Source: Planctomycetota bacterium
GTDB taxonomy: Bacteria > Planctomycetota > Planctomycetia > Pirellulales > PNKZ01
NCBI GenBank assembly: GCA_018242585.1
Contig: JAFEBQ010000015.1
Coordinates: 62,001-126,000 of the forward strand
Length of the DNA stretch: 64,000 bases
Direction: 5' to 3'
The position numbers and the translations under genes were made by a program. Position 1 is the stretch's first letter, and each line of letters opens with the position of its first letter. Below the pieces are notes generated by a model. That model had not been told where the DNA came from and did not search any database. It saw nothing but the letters and a program-made list of their open reading frames with translations. Shown piece by piece: positions 32,676 to 44,387 of this stretch.

Positions 32676-33124
32676 CCAGGCAATTGTCCGAAAGTACGTG
32701 AAGGGGCCGTCGGCGCGCACGGTGTGCGCTCGGGCGACAACGCCCCCCATCGGTTGGTGATCGACCGCTCGGAACTCGCGCCGTGACTTGTGGCCCGAAA
32801 GGTCGGCTTAACCCGATCGTTCGCTGTCAGCGGGACACGATCGGTGCTCTGCTCAAAACCCTTGGCCGGGCGAGTCGTCTGCGAAGCACGACGATCCGTC
32901 GCCAGAAAAACCGCTACGCGCGGCGCCTTGCGAAGTGCAGGCCAGCGGGGCGTTACGTCTTTGTCAGAATCGCAGAACGACGGCTCAAGTTTTCGCGTAC
33001 AGAAAACCGGCTGGTGGCAAGTTCAGCGACGCCGCTGCTTCGCCCGGCGAATTCATGCTCGGGCTTGTCACACACCTTTGGTTACAGGGGGAGCAATTCA
33101 CACGGCGAGCGGGAGAGTGCTGCG
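32676..33124. other. Divergent intergenic region
   Basis: About 450 bp between the protease start and the Gly/Tyr-rich protein start. Open frames here have no recognisable pattern. It carries the promoters of both neighbours; GGGAGAG near 33112 is the ribosome binding site of the plus-strand gene. Confidence 0.4.
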
Positions 33125-33439
33125 ATGAGACGCTTACTGTTGTCGGTGGTCGCGCTGGCGGCGTTGGCCGTTCCGGCCGGCGCGGTGATGGCCAACCCTT
33201 ACCATCACGGTCACCATCATCACCACGGTTACTATGGCGGCGGGTGGGGCGGATACGGCGGTGGCTGGGGCGGGTACTACCAACCGTACTATGCTCAGCC
33301 TTACTACTCGCCGTATTCGTACGGCGTGCCGGGCTACGGCTCGTACTACCAGGGGTACTACAACCCGGGCGTCTCGTTCGGCTTTGGCTACGGCGGACGC
33401 CCGTACGGGTACTTCAACTACGGCGGCGGGGTGTACTAG
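33125..33439 (+). CDS. Small exported Gly/Tyr/His-rich protein
   Basis: A 104-residue protein with a clear signal peptide (MRRLLLSVVALAALAVPAGA). The mature part is almost wholly low complexity: a His cluster (HHGHHHHHG), then GGGWGGYGGG, YYQPYYAQPYYSPYSYG and GYYNPGVSFGFGYGG. A ribosome binding site GGGAGAG precedes the ATG. Such proteins are common in planctomycetes and may bind metals through His or form surface material; no function is proven. It is followed by a terminator-like hairpin at 33489. Confidence 0.8.
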   Translation: MRRLLLSVVALAALAVPAGAVMANPYHHGHHHHHGYYGGGWGGYGGGWGGYYQPYYAQPYYSPYSYGVPGYGSYYQGYYNPGVSFGFGYGGRPYGYFNYGGGVY

Positions 33440-34110: not shown

Positions 34111-35076
34111 ATGTTGCCGAGCAATGACGCTTGGAGTCAGTTACTACAGTCGAAGCATGCTTCGCCTTGGCTGACTGATGTGTACCTGCGCGGATTGCGC
34201 CGCCGCGCCGTCGAGCTTGGCTTGGCCCGCGCGCAGGTGACGCTGGGCGAGACGTTTGGCAACCGCTTTCTGCTGGTCTGGCAACAGACGGGCGTCGCCG
34301 ACCAATCGGCCGCCGAGCGCAGCTTTTGGAGCGAAGTCGCGCAACAAGTCTGCCAGCGCGGCCTGCGTGTTGACGATACGTTGCACGTCGCGCCGGCTCA
34401 GCGTGGGCCGGACCACCATTTCTGGGTCGTTGGTGGCGATGGCCGCGTGGCCACGCACTGCGCCAATGGTTTACTCCTGGCCGGCTGGTTGGTCGCCACG
34501 CGCGACAACCTCAGCCGATTGGTCTTTCACTGTGGCGCGGAAAGCCGGCAGATTGAACTGCTGTCCGAGCGTTTGGCGCGCGTGAACCTGGGCGTGCCGC
34601 GGATGCTGCCACGCTCCAGTTCATTGCCGGCGAGCTTGCTCAGCGCGCCGTCGGCCATTCACACCGGCGAGCCGCACGCCGTTAGTTTTGTTGAAGAGTT
34701 GGCGATCGCCGAGCCGCCGTACCACGATCGCTGCTTGGAAATCGGCCGCGAGGTGTGTGACGCTTCGCCCGACGGGGGGATCAACTGGAATCTGGTGGCC
34801 GTCGAGCGCGGACAGTTGCATATTCGCACGTTCGAACGTGGCGTGCGGCGAATCACGCGCAGCTGTGGCACCGGCTCGGCCGCCGCATTCACGGTGGCCT
34901 TGCTTCGCGGCAAGCTTAAGCAACGGCAAGCGCTCGTCAGTTCGGCTGGCGGCACGCACATGGTCGCCATGAAGGGTGGCGAGGTGTTCCTCGGCGGGCG
35001 TCCCCGCGTGGAGCGGCACCTGACGCTCGAACAACTGCTGCACGACGCCGGGCGTAAGCCCCTGGCGAAATCATGA
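34111..35076 (+). CDS. DapF-fold amino acid racemase/epimerase-like protein
   Basis: A 321-residue protein of the diaminopimelate epimerase fold. Both catalytic cysteines can be placed: Cys117 in THCANGLLLAG (usually CGNG) and Cys252 in SCGTGSAAA, with FERG (242-244) and INWNLVAVE as family landmarks. The canonical N-terminal GNDF is GNRF (residues 50-53), and the usual F-N-x-D-G-S is VGGDGR, so residues that bind diaminopimelate in DapF are changed. A racemase acting on another amino acid is more likely; DapF-fold racemases with such changes include the CntK histidine racemase. Its stop overlaps the next start (ATGA). Confidence 0.75.
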   Translation: MLPSNDAWSQLLQSKHASPWLTDVYLRGLRRRAVELGLARAQVTLGETFGNRFLLVWQQTGVADQSAAERSFWSEVAQQVCQRGLRVDDTLHVAPAQRGPDHHFWVVGGDGRVATHCANGLLLAGWLVATRDNLSRLVFHCGAESRQIELLSERLARVNLGVPRMLPRSSSLPASLLSAPSAIHTGEPHAVSFVEELAIAEPPYHDRCLEIGREVCDASPDGGINWNLVAVERGQLHIRTFERGVRRITRSCGTGSAAAFTVALLRGKLKQRQALVSSAGGTHMVAMKGGEVFLGGRPRVERHLTLEQLLHDAGRKPLAKS

Positions 35077-36773
35077 CCACGCCGCCGGCGCCAATTGCGC
35101 CGCTGCGAGCGTCAAACGACTCGGCTCACGAGTCGGTGGCCTGCACCACGGTTCGCGTCCCCATGCCTGACGGTGTCGAGTTGGTGGGGGATCTGTACAT
35201 TCCGCCGGGGGCTGGCCCTTGGCCCGCGGTGCTCACGCGCACTCCTTACGAAGCGGCCGACTTGCACGAGCGCGGGCACATGTACGCCGCGCACGGTTAC
35301 TTGTTTTTGGTCGTCGATGTCCGCGGGCGCTATCGCAGCCCGGGGCAGTGGGATCCGATGATCCACGAAACGGTCGATGGGCCGGCCACGATCGCCTGGC
35401 TGGCGGCCCATCCAAGCTGCGACGGTCGGGTGGCCACACGCGGCGCTTCGTACAGCGGCGCGAACCAGCTCATGGCCGCGCCTCATGCGCCCAGCGCGCT
35501 GAAAGCAATGAGCGTCCGATCGGCGCCGGCCGACGCCTTTGAGAATGTTCCGTTTCAGGGAGGCGCGTACGAGCTGTCCGACTTGGACTGGGCGTGGGAG
35601 AACAGCGGCCGCACATCGCTGTACGATCCGCTGGAAGCGGAGATGGACGATGCCAGCCGGGCCGCCAGCGCCCGGGCCGCGCTGACGGCGCGTCCATTGA
35701 TCGACGCCGACTTGCGCTTGGGTGTGCGCAGCGAACTGCTCCGTACTTGGATGCAGCACTGGAAGCTCGACAAATACTGGGAGCGTCGCGCCTGGCTGCC
35801 GGCGCTTACCGCGGCGCGCGTGCCCGCGCTGCACGTGTCGGGCTGGTGGGACAATAACGCTCGCGGCAGCGTGCTGGCGTTTCAAGCCATGGGGGGTGCG
35901 GCCGGTGGACAGCGATTGTTGATCGGTCCCTGGGATCACTCAATGATCGCGCCACAGGTTACCGACCTGCCCGAGCATGAACAGGCGCTGGTGCTGCGTG
36001 CCGCCTGGCGCAAGCCGGCGACCGATGAGTTGGCCTGGTTCGAGCATCATCTGAAGGGGCAGCCAAACCGACTGGCTCCGGTCGAGGTTTTCGTCACCGG
36101 CGACTGGAACTGGCACGAATGGCCTGATTGGCCGCTACCCGCCGAGACGCAGGATTGGCATCTGGGGGCCGATGGTTCGATTGCGCAGAAACGGGCCAAG
36201 CGCGGGGAGCGGAGCTATGACTTCGACCCCGCGCGGCCCAACACGATCAGCTCGGCCACGACCTTTCCGATCGAGCCCTTCCCCTACAACACGGCGCTGG
36301 ACGAGCGCGACGATGTGCTGGTCTATCGCTCGACGCCGCTCGACGACGAGCTATTCGTGGCCGGTGACGTCTCGGCCGCGATCGTCGGCAGCTCGACGGC
36401 GCTCGATTGCGATTGGGTGGTGCGGCTGGTTGACGAGTACCCCGATGGCCGGGCCATTTGCGTGCGCGACGGCATTTTGCGTAGCCGCTTCCGTCGTGGT
36501 TTCGCCCGTCCTCGGTTACTGACGCCAGGTCGCAAAGAAACATTCAACGTCAACCTCTGGCACATCGCTCATCGATTCCGCGCGGGGCATCGGCTGCGGG
36601 TCGAGATCGCGTCGTCGGCGCTGGGACGCTGGGATGTGAACTTGCAAGACGGAGGCGACCTGGCCACGGCGACCACGCCCGTCGTGTCGCGGCAAACGGT
36701 TCACAGCGGCCCGCGCGGCTCGCACCTTCGACTGCCCGTCGCGGCGGGAGCGGCCCTCGCATGGGAGCGTTAA
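35073..36773 (+). CDS. CocE/NonD-family alpha/beta hydrolase (S15-like)
   Basis: A 566-residue hydrolase, no signal peptide. VRVPMPDGVELVGDLYIPP begins the fold, and VVDVRGRYRSPGQWDP is a family signature. The nucleophile is Ser126 in TRGASYSGANQ, the acid Asp260 in SGWWDNNARGS and the His289 in GPWDHS. A beta-sandwich (jelly-roll) domain follows (DELFVAGDVSAAIVG onwards to the C-terminus), as in cocaine esterase and X-Pro dipeptidyl peptidases. These cleave acyl or amide bonds, including prolyl peptides. Its start overlaps the racemase stop, and its stop overlaps the MFS start by 13 bp. Confidence 0.85.
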   Translation: MTTPPAPIAPLRASNDSAHESVACTTVRVPMPDGVELVGDLYIPPGAGPWPAVLTRTPYEAADLHERGHMYAAHGYLFLVVDVRGRYRSPGQWDPMIHETVDGPATIAWLAAHPSCDGRVATRGASYSGANQLMAAPHAPSALKAMSVRSAPADAFENVPFQGGAYELSDLDWAWENSGRTSLYDPLEAEMDDASRAASARAALTARPLIDADLRLGVRSELLRTWMQHWKLDKYWERRAWLPALTAARVPALHVSGWWDNNARGSVLAFQAMGGAAGGQRLLIGPWDHSMIAPQVTDLPEHEQALVLRAAWRKPATDELAWFEHHLKGQPNRLAPVEVFVTGDWNWHEWPDWPLPAETQDWHLGADGSIAQKRAKRGERSYDFDPARPNTISSATTFPIEPFPYNTALDERDDVLVYRSTPLDDELFVAGDVSAAIVGSSTALDCDWVVRLVDEYPDGRAICVRDGILRSRFRRGFARPRLLTPGRKETFNVNLWHIAHRFRAGHRLRVEIASSALGRWDVNLQDGGDLATATTPVVSRQTVHSGPRGSHLRLPVAAGAALAWER

Positions 36774-38131
36774 TCCCGTCGGCGGCCGAGCGCTGCTTGC
36801 TCGGAAGATTCTACTTGGCGACGGTCGTTTCAGAACTGGCCCACTTGGCCATGCCGTTCCAGGTGCTGTTCATGGTCCGCTACCTGGGCGAGATGAATGT
36901 TGGCTGGGTGTTGCTGGCTGAGCGAAGCGTGGGGCTGCTGGCCGAAATTCCGACCGGTGCGCTGGCCGATCGATTCGGCCGCAAGCTGAGCGTCCTGGCG
37001 GGGCACGCCATCGCGGGACTGGGTTGGCTGTGCATTCCGGGCAGCACGCTCGCGCCCCAGAGTTACTGGCTGCCGCTGGTTTGTCTGGCGTTCAGCGTCG
37101 TGGCGGCGGGGCACGCGCTGACTTCCGGCGCGTTCGAATCGTGGGTAGTCGACGACTTGCGCGCTGCCGGACGGCGCGATTTGATCTTGAGTTTCTTTGG
37201 GCGCGAGCGTTCGCTGGCTTCGACCGCGGGAGTCGTTGCCGACGTCGTGGCGTTGTACTGCGTGTCGCAGGCACTGTTCGACTTTCGCTGGTTCTTCGTG
37301 ATGACGGCACTGGGCGAGTGGTTCGCGCTGGCGATTCTGGCAACTCAGTCCGAAGCGCCGTTCCGCGCGGACCACTACTCCTCCTCGTCGGCAACGGGGG
37401 CCCAAACGGGCAAGAGCGAGTGGGTCTTCGACGCCGATGATCCACAGGCCGAAGAGCTTGAAGAACTCGAAGCCGAGCTTGCCGGCGCGGAAGGGGGCGT
37501 CATCGAAACCGCGCGGCGCGGCTGGCGAAACATCGTTCAGCACCCGAGCTTGATCGCGCTGGCCGCGATCCTGTTCTGGTCGGTGCTAACGCTGGGGAGC
37601 GGCTCGGAAGCGATCCAAACCGTGTTCAGCGAAGCTCACGAGGCGATGGCCCGACCGGCGCAGAACGAAGAACACGATTTCGCGCTGTTGGAGTTGGGAA
37701 GCGACGTGTTGGGCATGGCCGCGCCGTTGGCGGCCGTGTGGCTGGTGACGCGATTGGGAACCCGTCGGGTGATGGCCCTGGGCGTGCTGCTGCCGGCGAT
37801 GGTCTCGCTGGCTATGTACTGGACTGGCGGCCAGATTGGCGCCGTGGCGGCGGCCTTTTTGATAACGACGTCGATGTACCATGTTTTTCAAACGGCCGCC
37901 GACGAGTATCAGCATCGCCTGCTCGACTCGACCCATCGAGCCACCACCTCGTCGGCGTTCAATCTGCTCACCGGGCTGGCAGGGGCATTCTCCGGCGCGC
38001 TGATCGCGGGCTTATTTCATTGGTTTTCTCCCGCGGTGGGCGTGGCCTGCTTGGGCGTGTTGGCGTTACCCTGTTTGGTGTTGTTGTTGCCGCGCTGGTT
38101 TGCCCAGGCCGAAGTCGAGGATGTCGCATGA
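36761..38131 (+). CDS. MFS transporter
   Basis: A 456-residue inner-membrane transporter with about 12 hydrophobic segments. GALADRFGRKLSVLAGH is motif A of the MFS. The cytoplasmic loop between the two halves is long and strongly acidic (DADDPQAEELEELEAELAGAE, about residues 226-246). GGGAG precedes the ATG at 36761 by 10 bases. Nested inside a racemase-hydrolase-ligase-like operon, it is more likely an exporter than a nutrient importer. Its stop overlaps the next start (ATGA). Confidence 0.8.
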   Translation: MGALIPSAAERCLLGRFYLATVVSELAHLAMPFQVLFMVRYLGEMNVGWVLLAERSVGLLAEIPTGALADRFGRKLSVLAGHAIAGLGWLCIPGSTLAPQSYWLPLVCLAFSVVAAGHALTSGAFESWVVDDLRAAGRRDLILSFFGRERSLASTAGVVADVVALYCVSQALFDFRWFFVMTALGEWFALAILATQSEAPFRADHYSSSSATGAQTGKSEWVFDADDPQAEELEELEAELAGAEGGVIETARRGWRNIVQHPSLIALAAILFWSVLTLGSGSEAIQTVFSEAHEAMARPAQNEEHDFALLELGSDVLGMAAPLAAVWLVTRLGTRRVMALGVLLPAMVSLAMYWTGGQIGAVAAAFLITTSMYHVFQTAADEYQHRLLDSTHRATTSSAFNLLTGLAGAFSGALIAGLFHWFSPAVGVACLGVLALPCLVLLLPRWFAQAEVEDVA

Positions 38132-39471
38132 GTTCCACGCTTGCCCCTTCGCCGACGCTGGAATCGCTGCTCGATCGGCGCGACCGTGTGCAAGCGCTTC
38201 TCGATCGACATAACCCAGGTCGCAAGGTCGATTGGATGCTCAGCGACCGCCCTTGGCGGATTCCGCCGCACTGCCTCGAACGAATCGAACGCGCTGGCCC
38301 GGCCATGCACGCCTTTTATCGTGCGGCACAACAGATTTTCCACGACACGCCTTGGGTCCGCCAACTGACCGAAAAGCGGTATCACCCGAATTATCGTCGC
38401 TTTAACGATTCACAGCCCGAGGCGATTCCGCTGAACCCTCGCCCCGACATCGTGCCCGACGCCGATTGGAACCCGAAGTTCGTTGAGCTCGAAATCACGG
38501 TGGGCGGGCGGAGCGATAGCGAACTGATGCGCCAGGCGTACGGACTGCCCGGCGACAAGTCGTCGGTGAAGTTGTACGCCGAGATGCTGCGCCGCCGTGG
38601 GCTGACGAACCAGCCAGTTGCAATCTTGTGCGCGCACCATCCGACCTATGCCGAGCTGATGGACGATGCGCGGTGTTACGTGTCGCTGCTGCAAGAAGCC
38701 GGCGCGAATGTGGAAGCCTTGCTCGAAGAAGACTTGCCTTACTTGTCGTACCGAGATGGCAAGATGCAATGTCTGCGGCCGGGGCATCGGTTCGAGTTCA
38801 CCCACTTCGATCGGCTGATCGATCTGTTCGAGTTGGCCGAGTTGGCCCACCTGGGCATGCGGCCGCTGCTGGACGCCTACTTGGACGGCGCGGTCCAGGA
38901 AATGAACACCTGCAAACAGTTCTTCGACGAGAAAATCTGGATGGCGCTGTTCTGGGATTGCCGCTTGCAGGATCGTTGGCGCCGCTTGATTGATGACGTG
39001 TCGCACGAAGTGCTGAGCCAGATCATCCCGCGCACCATCTTACTCGCGCCGGGGGCCGAAGTGCCGATCGATGGGCGCTGGCTGCCGTTCGAGCGGCTTG
39101 CCGAGTTGCCCGACGAAGAGCGCCGCTTCGTGACCAAGGAGTCCGGCACCAGCGAAACCGCCGCCGCCGCCCAGTCGTTCGTCGTCCTTTCGCAGATGGG
39201 GCGTGACGAAGCGGCGGAGCATTTGACGAACCTGGTTGAGAATGGTCCCCCCAGCGTGCTGCAAGAGTTGGTCGAAAGCACCAAGGTCGAGTTCACCGGG
39301 CTCGATCCCGATACGCAGCAGGTGGTTCATCAAACTGGCGCGCGGGTGAAGATGTCGGCCTTCTACATCGATGGGGCGCTCGGCGACGTGCTGTTCATCA
39401 GCAGCAACCGGCAATATGCCGTCCACAACGAAGGCTATCTCGAAACGGTCGTCGACCGAAACGGCGAATAA
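38128..39471 (+). CDS. Putative ATP-grasp-like ligase
   Basis: A 447-residue protein of uncertain family. WNPKFVELEITVGGRSDSEL and KIWMALFWDCRLQDRWRR resemble the central part of ATP-grasp/glutathionylspermidine-synthase-like proteins. The end FVTKESGTSETAAAA, then SVLQELVESTKVE and KMSAFYIDGALGDVLFISSN followed by AVHNEGYLE fits a C-terminal ATP-grasp lobe. These features are suggestive only; no single canonical signature is decisive. The start (ATG 38128) overlaps the MFS stop by four bases. If it is a ligase, it could join an amino acid made or racemised by the first gene. Confidence 0.5.
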   Translation: MSSTLAPSPTLESLLDRRDRVQALLDRHNPGRKVDWMLSDRPWRIPPHCLERIERAGPAMHAFYRAAQQIFHDTPWVRQLTEKRYHPNYRRFNDSQPEAIPLNPRPDIVPDADWNPKFVELEITVGGRSDSELMRQAYGLPGDKSSVKLYAEMLRRRGLTNQPVAILCAHHPTYAELMDDARCYVSLLQEAGANVEALLEEDLPYLSYRDGKMQCLRPGHRFEFTHFDRLIDLFELAELAHLGMRPLLDAYLDGAVQEMNTCKQFFDEKIWMALFWDCRLQDRWRRLIDDVSHEVLSQIIPRTILLAPGAEVPIDGRWLPFERLAELPDEERRFVTKESGTSETAAAAQSFVVLSQMGRDEAAEHLTNLVENGPPSVLQELVESTKVEFTGLDPDTQQVVHQTGARVKMSAFYIDGALGDVLFISSNRQYAVHNEGYLETVVDRNGE

Positions 39472-39725: not shown

Positions 39726-41168
39726 ATGATTGCCCGAGTTTCGGACTCTTGGCTACGTCAATCTGTCGCGCACCTCAGCTATGGGCTGGGGGTTGTGGCG
39801 GTGATTTCACTGGCACTTTGGGGGCACTGGACAGGCTGGCGATTGCGCCCCGTGGCACAACCGGTACAACCTGCGCCGGTGGCCTGGCGAGCCGAGATCG
39901 CCAATCAAGCGATGCCGCTCGCCGCCAAGGCGCGTGAAGTCGGCGATGATTCGAAGCCGCGCGAGCTATCGGCGATTCCCAATCCGGGCACGATCGATCT
40001 GCGCAACTCGGCTACGGTTGCCAAGGCGGGCATTGAGTTGGCCACGGTTGAGCAACAGCCGATGGAGCAGCATCTCGTGGCCAATGCGGTCGTCGAATAC
40101 GACCAAAATCGCCTGGCCCAGCTTTCGGTTCGCACGCCGGGGACGGTCTGGCGAATCGAAAAGCAAATCGGCCAGCCGATTCGCGAAGGTGACGTGCTGG
40201 CCGTGATCGAAGCGGTCGACATCGGTAAAGCCAAGGCCGACTTCCTGCAAGCGATCGTTGCCGAAGAACTGGCCGCCAAGACTCTCGAACGGCTGCAACA
40301 GGTGGCCGACTCGGTCCCTGACCGGCAAGTGCGCGAAGCGGCGGCCGCCGCGCGTGAAGCCCATATCACGCTGCACAACAAGCAGCAAACGCTGATCAAT
40401 CTGGGTCTGCCAATTCGTCTGATCGACTTTGCCAATTTGTCCGACGACGAGCGCGTGCGCCGCTTGCATTTTCTGGGGCTGCCTCCCGCACTGACCAAAA
40501 CGCTCGATCCCGAGGTGGCCACGGCCAATCTAGTGGCATTGCGAGCTCCGTTCGATGGAGTGGTGATCGGCCGTGGCATCGCGCTGGGCGAGGTCGTGTC
40601 GCCGAATCAAACTCAATTCACCATCGCCGACATCAGCCGGATGTGGATCAAGCTCGATGTCCGTCAGGAAGACGCCATGTTGGTTCGCGTGGGTCAGCGC
40701 GTGGCGTTCCATGACGACAGCTCGGCCGATGTGGTGGTCGGGACCATCGATTGGATCAGCACCGCGATCGACCCCCAGACGCGAACCCTGGAAGTCCGCG
40801 CCGAAGTCGACAATCCGATGGTCCCTGGCACCCTTGCCGGCAACGCGCCGCAACGCGCCTTGCGTGCTAATTCATTCGGCTCGGGTCGCATTCTGGTGCG
40901 CGAGACACAGACCGCGTTCGTCGTCCCCAGCGCCGCCGTGCAAACGGTCGGCGAGCAGCACGTCGTGTTCGTCTCCCATGGAGACGTCGAGTTTCGACCC
41001 CAGATGGTCGAACTGGGTGTGATTGGCCCCGAGGTCACCGAGGTCCGCTCGGGCCTGGCGGCTGGTCAAACGATTGCCGCGCGCGGCAGCCATGTCTTGA
41101 AGGCGGAGCTCACCCGTCGTCGGCTGTCGATTCACGTGCCGGCCGAGCCGGTCTTGGCGGCGCCGTAA
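39726..41168 (+). CDS. RND efflux periplasmic adaptor (CzcB/CusB-like)
   Basis: A 480-residue HlyD-type adaptor with an N-terminal membrane anchor (LSYGLGVVAVISLALWGHW). PGTVWRIEKQIGQPIREGDVLA is the lipoyl-like half-motif, followed by an alpha-hairpin (AEELAAKTLERLQQVADSVP). ALRAPFDGVVIGRGIALGEV and the beta-barrel TIADISRMWIKLDVRQEDAM complete the adaptor core. The C-terminal membrane-proximal part runs to RGSHVLKAEL. It bridges an inner-membrane RND pump to an outer-membrane channel. It precedes the pump gene by 99 bp. Confidence 0.85.
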   Translation: MIARVSDSWLRQSVAHLSYGLGVVAVISLALWGHWTGWRLRPVAQPVQPAPVAWRAEIANQAMPLAAKAREVGDDSKPRELSAIPNPGTIDLRNSATVAKAGIELATVEQQPMEQHLVANAVVEYDQNRLAQLSVRTPGTVWRIEKQIGQPIREGDVLAVIEAVDIGKAKADFLQAIVAEELAAKTLERLQQVADSVPDRQVREAAAAAREAHITLHNKQQTLINLGLPIRLIDFANLSDDERVRRLHFLGLPPALTKTLDPEVATANLVALRAPFDGVVIGRGIALGEVVSPNQTQFTIADISRMWIKLDVRQEDAMLVRVGQRVAFHDDSSADVVVGTIDWISTAIDPQTRTLEVRAEVDNPMVPGTLAGNAPQRALRANSFGSGRILVRETQTAFVVPSAAVQTVGEQHVVFVSHGDVEFRPQMVELGVIGPEVTEVRSGLAAGQTIAARGSHVLKAELTRRRLSIHVPAEPVLAAP

Positions 41169-41267
41169 TCGTCAGCTCGTTCGTGACTCGTTCGCGTCGT
41201 TTCGCTCGATCAAAAACATTACAGAAACTTTAACCAGCACGCCGCCAAACAAGTTTCGAGTTCGACC

Positions 41268-44200
41268 ATGGCAACCTGGCTCATCGACTGGTCGCTGCGA
41301 CATCGCCCGCACGTGTTGGTGTGCGCCGCGCTGTTGGTGCTGGCCGGAGTCTGGGCCGGACGTCGGCTGAACTTTGACGCTTTTCCCGACACCACGCCCG
41401 TCCAGGTACAGATCAACACTTCGATTTCATCCCTCGTGCCCGAGGAAATCGAGCGGCAGGTCACGATTCCGATCGAGCAAGCGATCGCCGGGTTGCCGGG
41501 CTTGGAGCAGGTGCGGAGCATTTCGCAGTTCGGGCTGTCGCAGGTCGTGGCGACGTTCTCGGATCGGACTGGGATTTACTTTGCGCGGCAACTGATCGCC
41601 GAGCGTCTGCAAACCGTGGAACTTCCGCCGGGCATCGAACGCCCGAAGATGGGGCCGGTTTCGACGGGGCTGGGTGAGGTGTTTCATTACTTGCTCGTGC
41701 CGCGCGAGACTGACCCGGCGGGCAAGGCGCTGACCAACGTGCGCACCTATCAAGACTGGGTGCTGAAGCCGGCCTTGCGCCCCACGCGCGGCACCGCCGA
41801 GATCAACTCGTGGGGGGGCCTCGAAAAGCAGTACCAGATTCGCATCGACCCCAATCGGCTGATTCGCCACGAGTTGTCGTTCGAGGAAGTCGTCGACGCG
41901 GTGATGAACAACAATCTCAGTGTCGGCGGCGGCAATATCGAGCGCGATCGCAGCGGCGAAATGCTGCTCCTGCATGGCATGGGGCGGACGATCGATGTCA
42001 ATCAGATTGGCAATATCGTCATCACCGCCAAGGAAGGGGTTCCTATCCGCGTCAGCAACGTCGCCGACGTGGTGATCGGCCATGAGCTGCGCCGCGGGAT
42101 GGTGACGGCCGCCGGGCGGGGCGAAGTGGTGCTCGGGCTGGGCTTCATGCTACTGGGCGAAAACAGCGACGCCGTGACACGCCGCCTACGGGCGAAAGTC
42201 GAAGAGTACCGCAGCCGGCTACCAGCGAACATCGACCTACTGGTTGTTTATGACCGCAGCGAGCTGGTTGACCAGGTGATCAACACCGTTCGGCTCAACT
42301 TGCTCGACGGGGCGACGCTGGTCGTGCTGGTGCTATTGCTGTTCCTGGGGAACCTGCGAGCCGGAGCGATCGTGGCGGCCGCCATTCCGTTGGCCCTGCT
42401 GTTTGCCTTTCCCAACATGCTCTGGTCGGGCATCGCGGGAAGTCTGTTGTCGCTGGGCGCGATCGACTTCGGCATTGTCGTCGATAGTTCGGTGATCGTG
42501 ATCGAGAATATCGCCCGACACCTGGCCGCTCATCCAGACGACGCGCGTCAGCCGGCTTGTCGTCTGCAACTGATTCGCCGCGCCGCGATCGAGGTGCGCC
42601 AGCCGGCCGTATTTGGCCAATTGATCATCATTATCGTCTACCTGCCGATCCTGACCCTGGAGGGGATCGAAGGAAAGATGTTCCGGCCGATGGCGTGTAC
42701 CGTGATCTTCATGCTGGTCGGTTCGCTGCTGATCTCGCTGACGGTGATTCCCGTGTTGGCCAGTTTTTTCCTGCCCAGGGTGATGAGTCATCGCGAGCCG
42801 TGGTTGGTCCGCCTGGCCCAGAGCATCTATCAACCGGTGCTGGCCGGCGTGCTCCGCGCGCGTTGGTTGGTGGCGGGCGCGGCGGCTCTGGTCTTGGCGA
42901 TCGTCGCTGTGCTGGCGTTGCAGATGGGGACCGAGTTCGTGCCGCGACTTTCCGAAGGCGCCATCGTCGTCGGCGTGATTCGCCCGGCGGGGACCGATCT
43001 CGACGAGTCACGCCGCTTGAATACCCTGACCGAGCGTTTGTTGCTGGCTGAGTTTCCCGACGAGATACGCTACGTGTGGAGCCGCGCCGGCGGACCCGAG
43101 GTGGCGACCGATCCTGGCGGCGTGGAATCGACCGATGTGTTCATCACCTTGACCCCGCGCGACCGGTGGCGCCGCGCCCGCACGCAAGGCGAGCTAGTCG
43201 AGCAGATGGCCGCGGCGATCGGCGACTTGCCTGGTCAGACCACCTGGTTCACGCAACCGATCGAGCAGCGCTTGAATGAAATGGTGTCGGGCGTCCGCTC
43301 GGACATCGCGTTGAAATTGTTCGGCGACGATCTCGAAACGCTGGTCGATCGGGCAGCGGTGCTGGAACAATTGTTGCGCACCGTGCCGGGCAGCGCCGAC
43401 GTGGCCGTCGAACAAGTCTTTGGCCAGCCCGTGTTGCAGGTGAAGATCGACCAGGACGCCATCGCTCGCTACGGCGTGCCGGCCAGCACGGTGTTGGAAC
43501 TGGTCGAGGCGGTTGGCGGCAAGCCGGTCGGTCAGATCGTCGAGGGGACGCTTCGGTTTCCCTTGGCGATTCGTTTGCCCGACGCCTATCGGCAGCGGCC
43601 CGAGACGATCGACCGCATGCTGGTGCCGACAGCGCTGGGCGAGCGGATTCCGCTGTCGCGGCTAGCCGATGTCAGCGTGCAAGCCGGCCCGCGCGTGATT
43701 TCGCATCAATGGGGCCAGCGCTGCATCACGGTCCAATGCAACGTCCGCGGCCGTGACGTCGGCAGCTTTGTGGCCGAGGCGCAGGAACTGCTCGACGAGC
43801 GATTTGAGCTTCCCTCAGGCAGCTATCGCCTGGAATGGGGTGGCCAGTTTGAAAACATGCGCCAGGCAACCGAGCGCTTGACCGTGGTGGTTCCGCTGGC
43901 CCTGGCGTTGATCGTGCTGCTGCTGTATCTGACGTATCGCAATGTCGTCGATACGCTGCTAGTGGCCACGAGCGTGCCGATGGCCTGTGTCGGAGGAATC
44001 CTAGCGCTTGAGTGGCGCGACTTACCGTTGTCGCTTCCGGCCGCCGTGGGGTTCATCACCCTGGCGGGCGTGTCGGTGTTGAACAACATGGTCTTCTCGA
44101 CACAGGTGCGACATTTGCAGGCTCATGGCCTCGAGCTTTGGCAAGCGATTCGCCAGACCGGGCTAACGCGACTCCGGGCGGTGATGATGACGGCCGTTGT

Positions 44201-44387
44201 GGCGTGCGCCGGGTTCATGCCGATGGCGTTAAGCCAAGCTGTCGGCGCCGAAGTGCAACGCCCCTTGGCCACGGTGGTGATCGGGGGCGTGCTGTCGAGC
44301 ACGCTGATGGAGTTGCTGCTGATGCCGGTGCTCTACTCGTTCTTCGGCCGTTGGCGGCATCATCCGCCGACCGTGACGAGCAATTGA
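41268..44387 (+). CDS. Heavy-metal-type RND efflux pump (CzcA/CusA-like)
   Basis: A 1039-residue inner-membrane pump, the normal length. TTPVQVQINTSISSLVPEEI and ITIPIEQAIAGLPGLEQVRS in the porter region match the HME-RND family. GAIDFGIVVDSSVIVIENI (about residues 398-416) is the transmembrane-4 proton-relay motif D-x-x-x-x-x-D-...-E of CzcA proteins. Later membrane segments include VVPLALALIVLLLYLTYRNV and FITLAGVSVLNNMVFSTQV. It extrudes metal ions or other substrates with proton antiport. No outer-membrane factor gene is adjacent within the window. Confidence 0.92.
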   Translation: MATWLIDWSLRHRPHVLVCAALLVLAGVWAGRRLNFDAFPDTTPVQVQINTSISSLVPEEIERQVTIPIEQAIAGLPGLEQVRSISQFGLSQVVATFSDRTGIYFARQLIAERLQTVELPPGIERPKMGPVSTGLGEVFHYLLVPRETDPAGKALTNVRTYQDWVLKPALRPTRGTAEINSWGGLEKQYQIRIDPNRLIRHELSFEEVVDAVMNNNLSVGGGNIERDRSGEMLLLHGMGRTIDVNQIGNIVITAKEGVPIRVSNVADVVIGHELRRGMVTAAGRGEVVLGLGFMLLGENSDAVTRRLRAKVEEYRSRLPANIDLLVVYDRSELVDQVINTVRLNLLDGATLVVLVLLLFLGNLRAGAIVAAAIPLALLFAFPNMLWSGIAGSLLSLGAIDFGIVVDSSVIVIENIARHLAAHPDDARQPACRLQLIRRAAIEVRQPAVFGQLIIIIVYLPILTLEGIEGKMFRPMACTVIFMLVGSLLISLTVIPVLASFFLPRVMSHREPWLVRLAQSIYQPVLAGVLRARWLVAGAAALVLAIVAVLALQMGTEFVPRLSEGAIVVGVIRPAGTDLDESRRLNTLTERLLLAEFPDEIRYVWSRAGGPEVATDPGGVESTDVFITLTPRDRWRRARTQGELVEQMAAAIGDLPGQTTWFTQPIEQRLNEMVSGVRSDIALKLFGDDLETLVDRAAVLEQLLRTVPGSADVAVEQVFGQPVLQVKIDQDAIARYGVPASTVLELVEAVGGKPVGQIVEGTLRFPLAIRLPDAYRQRPETIDRMLVPTALGERIPLSRLADVSVQAGPRVISHQWGQRCITVQCNVRGRDVGSFVAEAQELLDERFELPSGSYRLEWGGQFENMRQATERLTVVVPLALALIVLLLYLTYRNVVDTLLVATSVPMACVGGILALEWRDLPLSLPAAVGFITLAGVSVLNNMVFSTQVRHLQAHGLELWQAIRQTGLTRLRAVMMTAVVACAGFMPMALSQAVGAEVQRPLATVVIGGVLSSTLMELLLMPVLYSFFGRWRHHPPTVTSN

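Follow-up and report, generated by a model that had tools for sequence, protein, structure and literature searches.

A co-inherited four-gene cassette with a DapF-fold racemase and an ATP-grasp-fold protein from a planctomycete, as a candidate source of a small molecule containing a D-amino acid

ATP-grasp ligases that work outside nonribosomal peptide synthetases (NRPSs) are already known, as are DapF-fold racemases recruited into secondary metabolism. In the bacilysin cluster the ligase BacD is accompanied by the major facilitator superfamily (MFS) protein BacE, and in D-cycloserine biosynthesis the O-ureidoserine racemase DcsC (PDB 7vdy) operates with the ATP-grasp enzyme DcsG. The ATP-grasp enzymes Cp1B and Cp2B form pseudodipeptides in the E-64 pathway (PMC12568646), PddB is a 2,4-diaminobutyrate racemase encoded beside the poly-D-Dab synthetase PddA (PMC8225329), and CntK and HisR are histidine racemases of the DapF fold (PMC11602996). 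We describe here a four-gene cassette, with DcsC and these others among its closest known systems, that lies at 34111-39471 on the plus strand of a 64,000-nucleotide stretch of DNA from a Planctomycetota bacterium (the window; contig JAFEBQ010000015.1, C15:62001-126000 of a 5.57-Mb genome). Its genes encode a putative DapF-fold racemase, a CocE-type hydrolase, an MFS transporter and a predicted ATP-grasp-fold protein that adjoins the transporter as BacD adjoins BacE, and the four are co-inherited. We rate at about even the chance that the cassette makes and exports a small molecule containing a D-amino acid, in what is likely a compact, rare and NRPS-free system. The literature searched, chiefly outside subscription journals, yielded no pathway with this gene set, in keeping with the original prediction from the sequence of the window, which knew of none.

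The cassette consists of four genes with successive overlaps of 4, 13 and 4 bp, from the open reading frame (ORF) list and the sequence; all four ORFs are present and the overlaps are those originally reported.

34111..35076, plus strand: gene 1, 321 aa, predicted DapF-fold cofactor-independent amino-acid racemase with an altered substrate pocket
35073..35076, plus strand: overlap of genes 1 and 2, ATGA, from the sequence
35073..36773, plus strand: gene 2, 566 aa, CocE/NonD (S15-type) alpha/beta hydrolase
36761..36773, plus strand: overlap of genes 2 and 3, 13 bp, from the sequence
36761..38131, plus strand: gene 3, 456 aa, MFS transporter with an acidic central loop
38128..38131, plus strand: overlap of genes 3 and 4, ATGA, from the sequence
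38128..39471, plus strand: gene 4, 447 aa, predicted to be an amide ligase with the ATP-grasp fold of glutathione synthetase, YgiC and Cp1B

A longer GTG start for gene 4 is possible at 37738 in the ORF list, and we set the start at 38128 because it yields the ATGA overlap and matches the relatives in alignment A1. The cassette is more than a chance arrangement, since the same gene set is found in six other genomes. These came from a motif-based scan of 84,980 species with the gene-4 alignment, which undercounts because exact peptide motifs were required, and the six loci belong to two Pseudomonadota metagenome-assembled genomes (MAGs; L005 and L010), Marimonas lutisalis (L006), a betaproteobacterial MAG (L007), a deltaproteobacterial MAG (L008) and a MAG recorded as 'bacterium' (L009). 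At all six, relatives of the CocE hydrolase (38-42% identical), the MFS transporter (30-33%) and gene 4 (38-41%) are adjacent, and the racemase relatives are about 25-33% identical. The racemase gene is directly upstream of the CocE gene in five of the seven cassettes (the window, L005, L007, L008 and L010), that of L007 being on a second contig (L013) which shares a 186-base exact end overlap with the start of L007. A weakly GNAT-like gene (L006:5106-5744, 212 aa, under the Pfam cut-offs) stands between the racemase and CocE genes in Marimonas, and could possibly supply an acyl tailoring step. In the L009 genome the racemase is unlinked, on another contig (L014), and is 59.5% identical to the L005 racemase. 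The gene order, whose conservation had been put forward as a check, is found in five of the six species, once with the extra gene and once across contigs, and does not extend to the racemase in the sixth. Just upstream of the L009 cassette, at the racemase position, is a gene (L009:3716-5422) whose 568-aa product joins a FeeM-type N-acyltransferase to a PhnW-like aminotransferase of class V. Since an epimerase is known among the class-V aminotransferase folds, this gene was weighed as a racemase substitute, an idea dropped because the cassette-type racemase occurs elsewhere in the genome.

The junction between the MFS gene and gene 4 is a 4-bp overlap (ATGA or GTGA) in five of the seven cassettes (the window, L005, L006, L007 and L009) and a gene fusion in L008, and the two genes are 242 bases apart in L010, whose gene 4 is split between two frames in the record. 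With the ligase part of the L008 fusion as query there are 13 matches. Eleven have lengths of 900-935 aa, and ten of the eleven have a precomputed MFS domain. One gene-4 relative of 597 aa (P0132) is about 150 aa longer and has no precomputed MFS domain; the added length may represent either another fusion partner or a misread start.

Beyond the six loci, 13 of 37 gene-4 clusters, the window's among them, share their exact longest-contig size with a racemase cluster (13 of 26 when only contigs of at least 8 kb are counted), an equality that is an indirect sign of the same contig, and a near-miss control gave one gene-4/racemase pair 1-3 bases off in size. We note that one linked racemase (P0119) has a longest contig of the same size as that of the gene-4 relative P0012, and two further MAGs (locus-tag prefixes AB1611 and AB1847) have both genes, apart. 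The identity matrices of racemase and ligase are strongly correlated over 19 genomes (r = 0.909, with none of 2000 permutations as high), and so are they within the nine window-like genomes (r = 0.936) and the ten others (r = 0.843), again with none of 2000 label permutations as high in either. Whole-genome shared ancestry may also give such values, although the sparse spread of the cassette makes that less likely. Only the four cassette genes recur between neighbourhoods, save for four pairs, namely a weak beta-lactamase-like pair, an L006/L014 pair (30%), a low L014/window match and an antisense pair.

Searches for gene 4 in 57 relatives, 392 members of the phylum and 396 members of the order (overlapping samples) found it only in its own genome, and among 295 genomes of the family of Marimonas it was found only in Marimonas; one weak match (G402, 19.2 bits) was discarded. 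It was not found in 72,556 plasmid records, and 115 pattern matches in viral contigs included no gene-4 relative. Because the cassette is rare among relatives yet present in Alphaproteobacteria (to which Marimonas presumably belongs), Betaproteobacteria and Deltaproteobacteria, its distribution fits horizontal spread.

Gene 1 had been read as a DapF-fold protein with both catalytic cysteines and altered substrate residues, and each part of this is borne out. It passes PF01678 (57.6 bits, cut-off 34.7) and is below the NCBIfam DapF equivalog cut-off (103.1 versus 114.65 bits), the motifs GNRF and CANG are present and FNxDGS is absent, and both catalytic cysteines (C73 and C217, DapF numbering) are retained, giving it the fold and the cysteine pair of the DapF-fold cofactor-independent racemases. 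In DapF the distal carboxylate of diaminopimelate (DAP) is held by Asn64, Asn157 and Asn190 and is bound by R209 (PMC12039745, PMC8225329), and gene 1 has G, E and N at the three asparagine positions, with two of the three asparagines lost. The cassette racemases fall within a group of 82 members (split support 0.98) in which C73 is a cysteine in 79 of the 80 sequences with a letter there, C217 is a cysteine in 82/82, N64 is replaced by G in 80/80, N157 by E in 82/82, and Q44 by D in 75/79. Among eight control DapFs N64 is constant, and N157 is Asn in five and Val in three, so position 64 is the cleaner mark. From 91 racemase matches, nine (P0120-P0128) were left out first and then six more (P0107, P0110, P0113 and P0115-P0117), which lie beyond the split and have E at 64; the 88-row counts still take in these six, and the racemase alignment A4 is a hand-picked set in which the window's gene is accompanied by 42 of these matches, 43 sequences in total. 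The six, which also have the DapF fold, with E at 157 and D at 44, are perhaps another non-DAP racemase family.

A reading of gene 1 as the housekeeping DAP epimerase, caught up in an operon by chance, has the match to PF01678 in its favour; we consider it extremely improbable and reject it. The same genome holds a separate canonical DapF on contig C46 (its two halves score 117.7 and 104.9 bits), disposing of the concern that gene 1 might be the sole dapF; the six other cassette genomes have one further DapF each, and the DAP-binding residues are changed throughout the group, in addition to the score of gene 1 under the equivalog cut-off. The housekeeping DapF of Marimonas (L021:192-1088, minus strand) has, as aligned, Ser in place of its second catalytic cysteine (ASGSSSC).

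PddB shows that a DapF-fold racemase can be recruited to work next to a synthetase, and it likewise occurs with a separate, retained DapF and has the distal-carboxylate asparagines replaced (PMC8225329). It differs from the cassette racemases, however, in that its partner PddA is a homopolymer synthetase, in the loss of Arg209, and in having Gly at position 44 where most of them have Asp (PMC8225329). The core of gene 1 starts at about residue 42, preceded by an N-terminal extension (34111-34230) that is helical and about 40 residues long, and PddB-type racemases have an N-terminal tail of 27-28 residues (PMC8225329). The histidine racemases share the DapF fold and, in HisR, an acidic pocket, and the proposed contacts to imidazole, CntK Glu46 and HisR Glu65, fall near positions 44-47 and 71 when counted from the first cysteine, not aligned (PMC11602996). 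The residue at 71 is Asp or Glu in 54 of 80 members of the cassette group and is Thr in the window's gene. Comparison of the gene 1 active site with those of DapF and CntK, which had been suggested at the outset, gives changes at N64 and N157 relative to the former and, in most members of the cassette group, an Asp at 44 that by count is near Glu46 of the latter. The pattern of residues suggests that gene 1 may racemise a non-DAP amino acid with a side chain suited to an acidic pocket, for example a basic or imidazole side chain. Where members of the subfamily are named in databases they are called diaminopimelate epimerase or hypothetical protein, and because the pocket is the subfamily's own (G64, E157 and mostly D44) its enzymes would be expected to yield a new D-amino acid that can be tested for.

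Gene 4 is harder to place by sequence. It has no Pfam or NCBIfam match and no ATP-grasp family at E 1, and the gene and its profile together gave a single match among PDB sequences, a globin-coupled kinase at E 0.28 that we take as chance. Its predicted structure (pLDDT 91) is a three-domain ATP-grasp fold spanning the full length of the protein, which fold comparison places with eukaryotic-type glutathione synthetase, YgiC/YjfC and Cp1B, and the guess that gene 4 is ATP-grasp-like is therefore correct at the level of fold; the protein escapes family annotation though its predicted fold is clear. The catalytic R-x-D and E-x-N motifs of Cp1B comprise R139, D141, E163 and N165 (PMC12568646), alongside an ATP-binding Lys; among the gene-4 relatives R105, D107, E120 and K337 are invariant but E/D stands in place of the Asn, in a correspondence drawn by eye from motif order. 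Amide-ligase chemistry is predicted for gene 4 from the model, and Cp1B is a precedent for an ATP-grasp enzyme of this type making pseudodipeptides (PMC12568646). The differences are that Cp1B is fungal, that gene 4 is 15% identical to it over the alignment, that D-Ile is not accepted by Cp1B, and that the E-64 pathway includes an oxygenase, a pyridoxal phosphate-dependent decarboxylase and an ANL-type synthetase, with no racemase described in the excerpts drawn on here (PMC12568646). The pairing of ligase and transporter had been likened to bacD-bacE, a comparison that does not appear to hold: with no Pfam ATP-grasp family at E 1, a BacD-type ligase was rejected at the level of fold class. 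BacD itself is not among the 50 fold matches listed for gene 4, a listing that leaves room for a match further down.

Gene 3 passes MFS_1 (PF07690; 51.8 bits, cut-off 33.4), MFS motif A is present in all seven cassettes by alignment and motif scan, and a sequence search of the PDB gave no match up to E 1. The acidic loop noted earlier (EWVFDADDPQAEELEELEAELAGAEGG) is present, although it is long only in the window's copy and its length is not common to the six other cassettes. We presume that transport is outward. Gene 3 also has a weak likeness to tetracycline exporters, at 38.3 bits far under the model cut-off of 750. This likeness counts in favour of a resistance function, in which the hydrolase and efflux would inactivate and expel an outside compound and the racemase and ligase would be accessory, as does a beta-lactamase-family gene downstream of the L005 cassette (L005:10538-11860), to which a gene near the L008 cassette (L008:3665-4756) is 25.6% identical over 168 aa. 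We think such a function very unlikely, as the racemase and ligase are as constant as the hydrolase and the transporter, and gene 4 is found in none of the plasmid records.

The assignment of gene 2 as an S15-like acyl hydrolase is secure, in that it passes the CocE/NonD model TIGR00976 (307.8 bits, cut-off 66.3) and matches cocaine esterase (3pui) over nearly its full length at E 5.7e-65, with agreement at the Ser, Asp and His that we take to be the triad positions of the esterase, and the triad motifs are kept in all seven cassettes. S15 family membership alone tells little because the same genome holds several other S15-type genes (nine matching stretches). The protein is apparently cytosolic, with no hydrophobic N-terminus by eye, and a role in maturation or self-protection is plausible.

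We favor a model in which the two cysteines of gene 1 would serve to racemise an amino acid in its free form, gene 4 would spend ATP to activate a carboxylate and join the racemised amino acid as an amide, and gene 3 would move the resulting compound through the membrane, with gene 2 acting within the cell as a hydrolase on an ester or amide of either precursor or product; the order of these steps is one that we infer. A more specific version, which we hold tentatively, is that a new non-DAP racemase subfamily feeds a new sequence family of glutathione-synthetase-fold ligases, fused to the transporter in some lineages, such that a D-amino-acid pseudopeptide would be made at the membrane and handed to the exporter with no NRPS involved. 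Bioactive small molecules can be reached through amide ligases that work outside NRPSs, the fusion of MFS protein and ligase would be a physical link of synthesis and transport, and the cassette is compact enough to be transferred to E. coli in one piece because it has four genes and no carrier proteins.

Several observations weigh against production and export. The racemase group keeps R209 in 82/82 and N190 in 69/82, leaving room for a substrate with a side-chain carboxylate, and the linked racemase P0119 has Ser at C73. The cassette contains no gene for an unusual building block and no regulator. In gene 4 the E-x-N of YgiC and Cp1B reads E-x-E/D and the glycine-rich loop has diverged, and an hhalign comparison of its profile with two YgiC-type sequences gave E 0.37 and a probability of 0.2%, leaving nothing usable, so that sequence homology to YgiC/YjfC was rejected. 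The last result bears equally on a modification of the envelope or of a metabolite pool, in which the racemase and ligase would couple a D-amino acid to a cellular peptide, polyamine or thiol, much as YgiC/YjfC act on peptide and spermidine, to protect against stress and not for secretion. This has the shared fold behind it and is unlikely, in view of the lack of detectable sequence similarity, the constant MFS partner, and a distribution in the searched samples too sparse for a general stress function.

The direction of transport is a further point. The motif C pattern (of the G-x-x-x-G-P-x-x-G type, which we take as the antiporter mark) was found by pattern scan in none of the seven cassette MFS proteins, and export is accordingly unsupported by motif. 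An MFS protein fused to an ATP-using enzyme could equally import and modify, and the gene 2 hydrolase could be catabolic, as CocE/S15 hydrolases often are. All three points speak for scavenging, in which the transporter would import an acylated compound or one containing a D-amino acid, CocE would cleave it, and the racemase would convert D to L, with the ATP-grasp protein left to trap or conjugate the product. We regard scavenging as doubtful, yet it stays a contender mainly because the direction of transport is unreadable from sequence; an ATP-consuming amide ligase, which is the tightest partner of the MFS protein, would be superfluous for breakdown, and the neighbourhoods share no further catabolic gene. 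The original proposal of a production and export cassette for a D-amino-acid compound is partly supported.

The GC content of the cassette (64.5%) is within the 57.6-66.0% seen along the window in 4-kb steps and shows no recent foreign mark. Promoter and terminator scans gave no excess over shuffles (0 versus 1.0 and 7 versus 6.6, respectively). Shikimate-dehydrogenase-like and trypsin-like genes, identified by eye, lie upstream of the cassette on the other strand. Directly downstream on the same strand (39726-44387) are a CusB/HlyD-type adaptor and then a resistance-nodulation-division (RND)-type efflux ORF (1039 aa, by eye). The flanking genes of the window do not recur with the cassette, with the exception of the adaptor, for which there is a 28% match next to the unlinked racemase of L014. 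A further ORF at 32783-33439 has in its second half a low-complexity stretch rich in His, Gly and Tyr (HHGHHHHHGYYGGGWGGYGG...).

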